From contig NZ_JASGBQ010000021.1 of assembly GCF_030053595.1 (NCBI RefSeq), positions 1 through 53,895 on the forward strand: DNA of 53,895 nt. The letters are read 5' to 3'. This DNA comes from Fusibacillus kribbianus. Lineage in GTDB: Bacteria; Bacillota; Clostridia; Lachnospirales; Lachnospiraceae. Of this stretch, positions 3,051-53,895 are shown piece by piece (positions within the stretch are counted from its first letter, which is position 1; each line of letters opens with the position of its first letter). The notes beneath the pieces are model-generated. The model saw only the letters and a list, made by a program, of their open reading frames with translations. It was not told the DNA's origin and ran no database searches. The position numbers and the translations under genes were made by a program.

Positions 3051-6000
3051 TTAATAATATATAACATCCATATCTACATTTCCTGTAATTCCTGATACAC
3101 TTCCGCGGTCTGTATACTGCCACATCAGGTAACTTCTTGTATATGTAGTTGTCCCTTCATATGGATACACAGGAACTGTAAGCGGCCACTGGGCCACCCA
3201 AATTGAATAACGCTGCTCCAATTGATCAATCGCCCATGAATTCATCAGATATGATTTACTTCCATACATAAGTGGCGTATAGCCGTTTTCGGCAATCATA
3301 TCCAAAAATGTAATGGCATGACTGGTTCTCTGCTCTATAGAAAGACCAAACATCCGGCTCGTAGTTTTATCATACCCCTCACAGTCATAGGCGACTGGAT
3401 ATGTAATATTATAAGTTTGAATATAATTCAAAACCCACCTGGCTTCCTCCTCAGCTTCCTGTGGTGTGACTGCAGTTGAAAAGAAATATACACCCACATC
3501 CAGCCCCGCTGCCAGAGCTCCCTGCAGATTTTCTGCAGCTCTTACATCTTCAATAATAACTCCATCTGCATTTCTGCGATAACCGATTCGGATCATGGCA
3601 AAACGCACCTGAGTCTGCGCCACTTGATTCCAGTCGATATACCCATTATGATAAGATACATCTATCCCAAGAGCTTTCGTTGCTCTCGGCACCTGAATCA
3701 TATAAGCTTCACTGGTCTCACTGTTTATCCAGCTTCCATTAATATTGACCGCTGCATACACCTTATAGACATACTGCTGTTCGGGCAAACAGTCTTTATC
3801 CTCATAACTATTACTTGAGGAAGTACCAAGCCAAACGTAATCGCCATCCAGCCCCACGGCACGGAATATACCATAACACTGTGCTCCGGGCACTTCCGTC
3901 CATTGAAGACTGACTGTTCGGACATTTCCGTCTGCAGTTGCATGAACCCCCTCTGGTTTCAAAAGTCCCACTTGCTGGATTTGCGATTCAGAATACCCTG
4001 CTAAACCATACTGATTGTCCGCATATACCACACTCTGGACCACATAAGAATACTCCTCTCCTACCTGCAGGCCAGTATCGTAATATTCAGTTTCCCAACT
4101 TCCCCCCAGGAAAGTCTGAACATTTCCCTGCCTCCGATAAACATAATAAGCCGCTGCTCCTGAAACTTTTGACCAGGAAATTCGCAATGAGGTTGACGAC
4201 GCCATCTCAGTCGATATAGATTGAGGCCCTGGACAAACCTGACCGGATACCGTTTCCGACATTTCTCCATTAAGCCACGTGTTATTATTCCATGCTGCAG
4301 CATATAGCTTATAATAATAAGTCTTTCCCGTTTCCAAATTAGCATCTGTATAGCTCTGTCCACCAACAGCTGCCAACCACTGATACTCTCCATCAGGTGA
4401 CTCTGAGCGCATCACACCGTAAACACTTGCCCCCACCACCGAATTCCACGACAATCGGATTGCATTTGTTGCACCTCCCGGCCCTATCGACTGAATAGCC
4501 GGTGCTGCCATAAGTACCGTACCGCTTTCATAATCAGTATTTGCTCCAATTCCGGTTGCTCCATCAACCGTACAAAGCGTCTGAATCACATAATACCTAA
4601 CATCATGTGCTTTGAGACCTTGATGTATATATTCAGTCTGACTGACCACAGCTATACGAGACAGCTCACCGCCATTTTTCTCTGAACAGTATACTGCATA
4701 TCCAGCCGCACCATCCACTGAATTCCAAGTAACACGAAGGGAATTTCCCCCTTGACTATCCACCTGTACCGCATCAGGGGCTGCTATCATTTGACCAGAA
4801 ACTGCGGAGGAGGAAGCCCCATTATACCACATTCCGTTAAGCAATATACTTCCGTAAATCTTATAATAATAAATTTTTCCCGGCTCCAGATTCTCATCCG
4901 TATATGTCTGTCCGTTCACAGCCCCCAGCCACTGATACTCTCCATCAATAGCTTCTGATCTCAAAATTCCATAGACAGACACATTTTCTTGTGTATCCCA
5001 GGAAATTTTTACCGCATGGATACCGCTTCCCGGCTGCGTTTTCACATTCTGAATTGCCTTAAGCTGCGCAACCGTTAACCGTGGTAAACATTCCGGGCCA
5101 TTGACCCATCCAAATTCTGTCATTCTTGCTGGATACACCTTATAATAATACGCTTTTCCAGCTTCAAGATTCGCTTCAACATCGATATAAGAGGTTCCAT
5201 TGATAGCCCCCAGCCAACTGTAACTCCCCTCAGGGGAATCAGCCCGCATAATCCCATAATACTCTGCATTAGAAACCGATGACCAGGTTATCGTGTTTCC
5301 TTCTTCTGAAGAAGAGACCACTACCTCCTTCGGAGCAGTCATTAGAGGAACTTTTATGACCTGAGAACTTTCTCCGCTGACCCAGGTTTCTCCTGTATAT
5401 CGCATAGGAGTAATTCTATAATAGTAAGTTTTCCCTTCCTGCAGCCCTGAATCAATGTACTCATATGCCCATACGGATGCAACCCGCTGGTATCCTTCTG
5501 TTTCTGCCTCCGACCGGAAGACTGCATATGCATCAGCCTCTTCCACATAATCCCAGCCAATTCTAATTTCCTGTGCCCCTCTTTGCTCTACCAGATTAAT
5601 CGTTGGCGCTGTCAATTTATGACAATCAGCACATTCATCATCAACCGGCACTGCACAATCGTGCGTATACGAAACGTCATACTGTTCTTTCAAACGATAC
5701 AAAGTGTAACCATTTTGCAAATAACGATATTGCAAATTTTCTAATGTGTACTGCCCTCCCTTTCCATATCGGGTAATTTTTGTCTGGGGAGGCGTCTGTT
5801 CCGCAATGTCAATATAAACCATTATACCATCGGTATCGTATCCCACGTCATAAACTAAAACCGAATGGTTACCCGGATAAACAAAAGCATCTCCAATTAA
5901 CACATTATACACGCTCTGGGTAGCCACCTGATCTGCACGGCCAGGTATTCCGCTGGTTGTCAATCTCCGATTAGTATTCCAGGCCCAAGATACAAAAGCG

Positions 6001-51506: not shown

Positions 51507-51698
51507 TTATGTCGCTGCCTCTTTGATATAATCGTCAGCAGAAACCCAAATAATATTTCTGCCGTTGGCATAAAGTTTGAAAAGGCACTGTGGATCTGTA
51601 TCAATGTTTCTACAGCTTTGACTGTCCGGAGGTGTCTCAGACCACAGCTTTTCGTTAATGACTGTTGAGTACAACCCCATCCAAAAGGATTTTACCAC
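51507..51698 (-). CDS. Candidate 63-residue ORF downstream of the interrupted gene
   Basis: It opens with GTG overlapping the stop of the interrupted gene by seven bases and encodes 63 residues with aromatic-rich segments (LYSTVINEKLWSETPP, CLFKLYANGRNIIWVSADDY). The composition looks protein-like and the position coupled, but no separate ribosome site is seen and an inner ATG six codons on is possible. It is unrecognised and may be a remnant. Confidence 0.35.
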   Translation of the reverse strand: MVKSFWMGLYSTVINEKLWSETPPDSQSCRNIDTDPQCLFKLYANGRNIIWVSADDYIKEAAT

Positions 51699-51840
51699 TC
51701 CTCATCTTCCATGGCATCATCCACACCTGCCGCATAGTCATCATCGCTCCAGTAGCGATCCCAGTCGTAATCATCGTCCTCATAAATCGCATTGTAACCA
51801 TCATCATAAGAATCAACAGAACTGTAATTCTTCTTTGAAG

Positions 51841-51882
51841 TACTACTGCCGGAGCTTTTAGTACTACTGCCGGAGCTTTTAG
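51841..51882. repeat. 21-bp tandem repeat inside the interrupted gene
   Basis: Two perfect copies of a 21-base unit (TACTACTGCCGGAGCTTTTA plus G) encode KSSGSST twice on the minus strand, extending the Ser-rich linker. Confidence 0.85.
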
Positions 51883-52060
51883 AGCTTCCGCTGTACGAGG
51901 TGCGGCTCTTATACCTGTAAATGCTGTTATCATGTAAGAAACAGTAACCGCCTCCTTCCCTTACATCGTTGTTGCACCCGCTCTTAATACATTTTGGTGT
52001 ACCCAGATCGATCATCCAGCCAATAAAAAGTAAAATACCAAGTGTGCAAAGAATTGCCAT

Positions 52061-52152
52061 TGTTAGCATCGGGCTAAATCAACCATATTTCATCGGGTTA
52101 ATTTAACCAATTCTCATCAGATTAAAATAACCAACGCATCAGATTCAATTAG
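52061..52152. repeat. Left terminal repeats of the IS21-type element
   Basis: CATCGGG/CATCAGA units begin at 52067, 52091, 52115 and 52137 (spacing 24, 24, 22), each followed by TAA..TAACCA-like sequence. IS21-family ends carry such multiple transposase-binding repeats. The last unit touches the istB stop. Confidence 0.88.
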
Positions 52153-52153
52153 T

Positions 52154-52954
52154 TTAATCCTTTCGTGTTACGCCCGGCTTGGGTCTGCCGGTTTCTATTG
52201 CTATTGTTTCCAGACGTTTTCCTCTGTAGCTGTTCCCTTTCATCATGAAGACAGTTGCATCGTCAAAGATTCGATCAAGGGCACACAGAAGTGAGGAGTC
52301 TTCACCGAAGAATTCGCCCCATTTGTTCGGACTCATGTTGCTTGTGAAGATCATGGTATTAGGACCTTCTTTGTTATAGCGTCGGTCCACCATATCGAAA
52401 AACATCCGCGTAGATTCTTTGTTGAAGACACACCGGCCAATCTCATCGATGATCAGACAGGACGGCTTTACCAAAGCACTGATCGTAGAACTTTCGCGGC
52501 CATATTTTACTGCATCTGTCAGACGCTGGTTCAGTTCGGTTGCTTTCAAAAAATAAGTCTTTAATCCATGTATGCAGCACTCTCTTCCATATGCCATAGC
52601 CAGATGAGTTTTTCCAACACCCTGTGGTCCGATAAATGCTAGGTTTCGTCCCGCATTTACTGCTGTCAGAGAGGGCAGGTTTCTTAATGCTTCTATCTGC
52701 TTTCCCTGGACAAGACTAAAATCGAAGCTGTCAAACGTCTTCGGTTCTTTTAACGGAAGCCTACTCATCTTAAGAAGCGTATTTCTGATTGTCTCTTCCT
52801 TTTGATTGCGCAGGTGGGCAAACACAAGCGCTACTGCTTCCAGCTGTTCCGGACTCATTGCTTCTGAATCAAGAAGTTCCATAAGTCCATTGGTATAAGC
52901 ATTGATCTTAAGAGAGTCGATGTCTGCGCTGATCCTTGAAAATACATCATTCAT
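52154..52954 (-). CDS. istB: IstB-like helper ATPase of an IS21-type element
   Basis: This 266-residue AAA+ ATPase, related to DnaC, has Walker A FIGPQGVGKTHLA, Walker B SCLIIDEIGR, sensor MIFTSNMSPNKWGEFFG and a C-terminal RGKRLETIAIETGRP. In IS21, IstB binds target DNA and stimulates the IstA transposase. The ATG at 52954 has GGGGAGGG upstream; a start 20 codons earlier (53014) also has a good AGGAGG site, but its extra residues (RRPYGTPAFPSL) look unlike the family. The end of the gene reaches the left terminal repeats. No istA partner is present. Confidence 0.9.
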   Translation of the reverse strand: MNDVFSRISADIDSLKINAYTNGLMELLDSEAMSPEQLEAVALVFAHLRNQKEETIRNTLLKMSRLPLKEPKTFDSFDFSLVQGKQIEALRNLPSLTAVNAGRNLAFIGPQGVGKTHLAMAYGRECCIHGLKTYFLKATELNQRLTDAVKYGRESSTISALVKPSCLIIDEIGRCVFNKESTRMFFDMVDRRYNKEGPNTMIFTSNMSPNKWGEFFGEDSSLLCALDRIFDDATVFMMKGNSYRGKRLETIAIETGRPKPGVTRKD

Positions 52955-53018
52955 CCCACAGACCCTCCCCAAAATCAAACTTGGAAAAGCCGGAGTCCCG
53001 TATGGTCTCCTCATTCAT
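52947..53018 (-). CDS. 23-codon ORF overlapping the istB start
   Basis: ATG 53018 follows AGGAGG by three bases. The peptide begins MNEETIRDSGFSKFDFGEG and its TGA overlaps the istB ATG by eight bases (ATGAATGA). In complete IS21 elements the istA end overlaps istB in the same way, so this may be the fused start and tail of a deleted istA. It could equally be a short ORF that couples istB translation. Confidence 0.4.
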   Translation of the reverse strand: MNEETIRDSGFSKFDFGEGLWDE

Positions 53019-53078
53019 TGTCCTCCTTTTTTTGATGCGTTGGGTAACATCAGTTTAGGACAAAAAAGGCACTTAGCA

Positions 53079-53160
53079 ATGACTTTTTGGTTATTTTAAT
53101 CCGATGACAATTGGCGATTTTAACCCGATGAAAAATGGTTAATATCACCCGATGCTAACA
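53079..53160. repeat. Right terminal repeats of the IS21-type element
   Basis: Inverted counterparts with GATG ending at 53106, 53130 and 53154, again 24 bases apart, and a degenerate fourth unit near 53081. The outermost 13 bases are identical to the left end in inverted orientation. Confidence 0.88.
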
Positions 53161-53228
53161 CCATTCCTGTACTCACGCCATTTGAATTTCTATTCATAAC
53201 CGCTTCCTCCGTCGACTTCATCTCATCC

Positions 53229-53477
53229 TTATTTACATATGATAAGCCAGAATACCATTCCAATTAATAAGATTACTCCGAGTAACTCATTGACAGCATA
53301 GCCGATAATAAGAGCAAAGATATAGAAGAGCCAAACCTTTCCGCCTGAACCACCTGAGCTGCCTCTTGAACCGGAGGAATAACCTCCTGGTCCGTCTGTT
53401 CCGTCATATATACAATCATTATAATGCCATCCGTCACTTCCGCCACAATCCGGGCAATGTCCTCTGTCTTCACTCAT
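53229..53477 (-). CDS. Small membrane protein with Cys motif and Gly/Ser linker
   Basis: This 82-residue protein has an N-terminal CPDCGGSDGWHYNDCIYDG (a zinc-ribbon-like half-motif), a Gly/Ser-rich linker and two close hydrophobic segments (KVWLFYIFALIIGYAVNE, LLGVILLIGMVFWLII). The ATG at 53477 has AGGAGG eight bases upstream. It ends 31 bases before the start of the interrupted gene, which has a similar Cys plus Ser-rich plus membrane composition, so they likely form one operon. Family not recognised. Confidence 0.75.
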   Translation of the reverse strand: MSEDRGHCPDCGGSDGWHYNDCIYDGTDGPGGYSSGSRGSSGGSGGKVWLFYIFALIIGYAVNELLGVILLIGMVFWLIICK

Positions 53478-53646: not shown

Positions 53647-53895
53647 TTGATTACTCCCATGTTTTTGTTGTTCATCTTTCTATTACCTTTTCTTAATTCT
53701 ACTTTATCCAAAATGCTGTCCCTTAAAAACACCACCATTTTTCTGTCATTTGTCATTTGTCATTTGTTCATTTTGTAGAATGAATTCCTTATTTCCAGTC
53801 AAACCATTATTTTTTCTCTTGGACTGGAAGTAAGTCTTGCACAAACTCTTTATTTGATTCATGATGATGCTGGTTATCTGTCTGCCAGAAAGGAA
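53647..53895. other. Right-edge non-genic stretch
   Basis: A/T-rich sequence with no convincing gene. It holds three tandem copies of TGTCATT (53744-53764) and an 8-bp inverted repeat TTCCAGTC/GACTGGAA (53793-53800, 53822-53829). A minus-strand frame at 53574-53756 overlaps the Cys-rich ORF in another frame and is not supported. Confidence 0.5.

Follow-up and report, generated by a model that had tools for sequence, protein, structure and literature searches.

Elements of the IS21 family leave target duplications of 4-8 bp. Their transposition is reported to require both IstA and IstB, their terminal inverted repeats typically hold at least two repeated units per end, with which the HTH domains of IstA engage, and for numerous members the target duplication is given as 5 bp (PMC11208146). 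Internally deleted copies of insertion sequences are already in print. The precedents that we compare with the present locus are an IS21 element of the actinobacterium Leifsonia xyli and the MITEs, which usually occur in many copies. The former, ISLxc1, is described as having a truncated istA and a coding istB, as does the copy analysed here; it is a different IS21 element, 2631 bp long, and the two are likened here by description (PMC2516522). MITEs and other non-autonomous elements are described as being moved by a parent insertion sequence, from which MITEs are thought to derive by internal deletion, usually keeping the ends and having no transposase of their own; they are generally shorter than 300 bp, whereas the copy analysed here has 1100 bp and a gene (PMC3189936; PMC3281130). 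Our literature search, with most subscription journals outside its coverage, found no report of this particular element.

The DNA that we analysed is a stretch of 53,895 nucleotides from Fusibacillus kribbianus (contig NZ_JASGBQ010000021.1), referred to here as the window. An IS21-family element of 1100 bp occupies positions 52061-53160, and these coordinates are exact. We call it the window copy; its features and those of its surroundings are as follows.

51692..52060, minus strand: 3' part of a split small gene; the flanks joined with one CCAT make one open frame
52057..52060: CCAT, left copy of the 4-bp target duplication
52061..52134, plus strand: left terminal inverted repeat (istB side), three 24-bp units
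52154..52954, minus strand: istB, 266 aa, AAA+ helper ATPase, open, its start overlapping the istA stop
52947..53018, minus strand: istA remnant, 23 aa, an in-frame fusion of codons 1-2 with the last 21
53012..53013: deletion junction, at which the full element has a further 1248 bp
53087..53160, minus strand: right terminal inverted repeat (istA side), three 24-bp units
53161..53164: CCAT, right copy of the 4-bp target duplication
53165..53197, minus strand: 5' part of the split small gene, counted from an inferred, likely start codon, since the open frame continues upstream of it

Both ends of the window copy are built as those of an IS21 element, with three 24-bp units each. When the left 74-bp terminal inverted repeat is set against the reverse complement of the right one, 63 of 74 bases are identical (85%), while random pairs of 74-base stretches from the window, 100,000 in all, reached 36 at most. 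Each end matches itself at 0.64 when shifted by 24 bases and at no more than 0.47 at the other shifts from 15 to 35, and a separate repeat analysis also gave the 24-bp period for both ends. The outermost 13 bases, TGTTAGCATCGGG at the left, recur as an identical reverse complement at the right terminus. A preliminary description made from the DNA letters had claimed the 24-bp-spaced end repeats, the 13 identical outermost bases and the flanking CCAT duplication, and all of these hold.

The duplication has a counterpart in the flanks: joined with a single CCAT, they form one open frame, MNRNSNGVSTGMAILCTLG..., that runs to a stop at 51692. This is, then, an ordinary insertion event that interrupted a small gene and duplicated 4 bp. 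The ORF of the split gene in the window had no Pfam match, and a 127-bp stretch of the gene recurs at 70% identity elsewhere in this genome, on contig C46. The split gene also has an acidic C-terminal motif, SYDDGY..YDWDRY..DYA.GVD.A.ED, in common with a larger ORF on C46 (L044:4738-5622), and at 51839-51882 it contains a perfect 21-bp tandem repeat of 2.1 copies that encodes a repeated serine-rich stretch. Neither the flanks nor the element itself had a match in the 10 other genomes of the genus. The last 123 bases of the window (53773-53895) recur on C24, C27 and C46 over 122-123 bases at 98-100% identity, and the ORF beside them on C46 is presumably an IS30-type transposase; the contig probably ends at a repeated insertion sequence.

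The istB of the window copy is an open frame. Its mechanically called ORF is 286 aa long, and the start that overlaps the istA stop, at 52954, gives the 266 aa listed above; the preliminary description was right to call the gene open. The product matches Pfam IstB_IS21 with an E value of 2.9e-45 and 155 bits, against 154.3 bits for the istB of the complete copy described below (cut-off 24.1). With NCBIfam IS21_help_AAA the window istB scores 161.1 bits (E 3.4e-47) and the other 161.2 bits, both under the 200-bit equivalog cut-off. It is a helper ATPase by its Pfam score, though it lies under that NCBIfam equivalog cut-off, and it matches the solved IS5376 IstB chains in sequence (best E 5e-36). 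The protein contains a stretch, GPQGVGKT, that we take to be a P-loop-like motif. A scan of 52040-53300 for sigma-70-like promoters found none, against a mean of 2.5 in shuffled sequence, a result that does not exclude a promoter there.

Almost all of istA is gone. The deletion extends from just after istA codon 2 to 21 codons before the end of the gene, and removes a clean, in-frame 1248 bp, or 416 of the 439 codons of IstA, with zero bases common to the two sides of the junction. The remnant retains the istA start, stop and ribosome-binding site (AAAGGAGG), and its stop overlaps the istB start by 8 nt, an overlap kept from the full element. A tblastn search of the window with the complete IstA from the same genome gave no match at E 1e-8. 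The preliminary description had seen no room for istA; this stands for the DDE transposase, which is reduced to 23 codons here and present in the complete copy, but it overlooks the short remnant. With the reading frame preserved across the deletion, coupled translation of istB could continue, so that IstB is probably still made from the window copy and istB expression may survive the loss of istA. As one deletion in three would preserve the frame by chance, the in-frame outcome says little about selection.

We searched the genome with the element and found two elements, the window copy and a second on contig C12 (L008:2468-4815); the four other rows of the result are ends matching each other. 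The C12 copy is 2348 bp long, encodes an IstA of 439 aa as well as IstB, and has ends identical to those of the window copy. It is, in effect, the window copy split by an extra 1248 bp; the aligned bases number 952 on the istB side of that gap and 148 on the istA side. Five substitutions separate the two in their 1100 common bases, none of them in the terminal 74-bp repeats, and their IstB proteins differ at two residues. The IstA of C12 scores 172.8 bits against NCBIfam transpos_IS21 (cut-off 160) and is the only one of three matches in the whole genome to exceed the cut-off; the other two score 72.4 bits, with an internal stop, and 28.5 bits. Among the checks that the preliminary description had proposed was a search of this genome for a longer, istA-bearing element between matching ends, and the C12 copy is such an element. 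Its view of the window element as an IS21 element carrying only istB holds. The alternative that it had raised, the use of another transposase, is unnecessary.

Both copies are flanked by CCAT, for which the random expectation is about 1 in 256, and other relatives are flanked by other bases; a target preference is possible.

The nearest full relative lies in the Lachnospiraceae MAG SUG700 (L016:167-2514, JALFIB010000213.1). This element is also 2348 bp long, has the same gene order and ends, and is 92.5% identical in DNA to the C12 copy; it differs from the window copy in its full-length istA and in the absence of a matching 4-bp duplication (CTTA against AAAG). We used it, together with a Butyrivibrio element (M55), as an outgroup to ask which copy carries the derived base at each difference. 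The two outgroups agreed at all four of the positions polarised on both (52286, 52479, 52540 and 52763). Differences from 53013 onward in the multi-sequence alignment were excluded, as the aligner had misplaced the short right part; that part was instead compared, ungapped, with C12 and SUG700. The window and C12 differ there at one base, 53032, which was polarised on SUG700 alone. The derived bases are in the window copy at 52479, 52763 and 53032 and in the C12 copy at 52286 and 52540, and each copy has one derived change that affects a residue of IstB. Since each copy has private derived changes, the two, judged by sequence, are sister copies, rather than a parent and its fresh deletion.

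We then asked how widely the shortened form is distributed. A 191-bp stretch across the junction was searched against 397 sampled genomes of the family. It matched both copies in the genome of origin, and short matches appeared in five of the other 396 genomes, four of them confined to the istB side. The fifth, in genome G272, was rejected as a junction-crossing match: its 31 bases reach two bases past the junction, but the locus has neither gene. The other 396 genomes thus hold no junction-crossing match, and the genome of origin holds one copy of the 1.1-kb form. No second 1.1-kb form was found in a sample of the order (392 genomes, searched with the 1.1-kb element) or of the class (391 genomes, searched with the full element); the three samples overlap, so we do not add them up, and only the family search used the junction stretch itself. 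Viral contigs contained no match to a 23-base junction pattern or to the end patterns, and none of the five stretches in them that matched an IstB pattern was confirmed. Plasmid records matched the full element only in three Collinsella records, over 11-18% of the query at 65-66% identity, and phage records did not match it.

IstB matches at E 1e-40 or better occur in seven of the 397 family genomes, the genome of origin included, and the genome collection contributed three loci; among named elements, the nearest are in one Lachnospiraceae MAG and two Butyrivibrio. We compared 12 related loci outside the genome of origin (L016, L017, L018, L038-L043 and L059-L061; L054 is the same place as L061). 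Full-length istA stands beside istB in five of them (L016, L018, L038, L040 and L042). L061 has a full istA and an istB cut by the contig end, L039 has an interrupted istA, and in L041, L059 and L060 the contig ends too soon for istA to appear. In L039 (2087-6932, genome G035) istA is split, apparently by a nested second, distant IS21 element. Two loci were considered as members of one istB-only mini-element family and rejected, since an exact-motif scan found no bracketing pair of ends at either: L017 (Butyrivibrio LC3010), with istB and the last 38 residues of IstA, and L043 (G350), with a broken istB and the last 62. We read both as remnants. A 1.1-kb form with both ends was absent from the 12 loci, among which those cut by contig ends cannot be judged. 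Five loci from among the weakest DNA matches were kept out of the 12: L013, L056 and L063 contain neither IstA nor IstB at E 1e-5, while L055 and L064 hold only distant pairs of 26-33% identity. With respect to CCAT, this sequence adjoins three left ends of this IS subgroup in two genomes, at L008:2464-2467 (also at 4816-4819), at window positions 52057-52060 and at L043:1639-1642, a hint of a target preference.

We consider it very probable that the window copy is an IS21 derivative that lost 1248 bp of istA, and with them its autonomy, in one illegitimate internal deletion. A complete 2348-bp element, or an already shortened copy, would have inserted into the small gene and produced the CCAT duplication; the single deletion, as the comparison with C12 shows, took the istA segment and left both ends and istB in place. 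Nothing in our results speaks against the deletion itself. Ribosomes could start at the istA ribosome-binding site, translate the 23 remaining codons and initiate again at the overlapping istB. Without those 416 codons the window copy cannot move alone. The C12 element has identical ends, and its IstA might in principle serve the window copy in trans; the undamaged ends, the open istB and the one above-cut-off IstA make mobility in trans plausible. The single copy, with no second 1.1-kb form found, counts against frequent movement of this kind.

The alternative that survives best is that the shortened element is itself mobile and was carried here by IstA acting in trans, as a member of a family of istB-only mini-elements. 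It overlaps with the explanation that we prefer, which leaves the order of insertion and deletion undecided. The identical ends of the full element in the same genome, the intact CCAT duplication, the open istB and the private changes (three in the window copy and two in C12), which mark a sister rather than a fresh deletion of C12, would all fit it. A duplication is equally expected if the deletion came after the insertion, however, and although the window copy is an internal deletion of a full parent with ends in common, as a mini-element should be, several copies of the deleted form at different sites would also be expected, and the genome has one, with no junction match in the rest of the family sample or in viral contigs. 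The preliminary description's idea of a mobilised derivative family is not supported, for the same reasons, and we regard a mobile mini-element as unlikely, though it deserves some weight.

An error of assembly, in which the true copy is full length and istA was dropped, is very improbable. The genome is a draft of 48 contigs, and this contig ends in another repeat. Against this, the absence of bases common to the junction sides means that there is no repeat on which an assembler could collapse the sequence, the window copy has its own substitutions relative to C12 on both sides of the junction, and the flanks occur once in the genome, except for the last 123 bases and the 127-bp stretch with its 70% relative. 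Least probable of all is that istB was kept as a domesticated ATPase for a host function, with the ends as a relic: the open frame and the P-loop-like motif would suit it, but the element has undamaged ends and interrupts a gene, and copies that differ at five of 1100 common bases are too recent for domestication.

The window copy is, on the evidence of its sequence, a defective derivative of a normal IS21 element, neither an autonomous IS21 nor a new kind of element. That it might be an IS21 mini-element which still makes IstB under the istA ribosome-binding site while living on its parent's IstA, supplying or diverting IstB and so tuning the activity of the parent, strikes us as highly improbable. 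Beyond annotation the finding has little importance, and it otherwise represents an ordinary step in the decay of an insertion sequence. The presence of complete and deleted copies with identical ends in a single genome nevertheless offers a neat natural setting in which to ask whether IS21 ends are open to service in trans, and whether a second source of IstB alters the rate.
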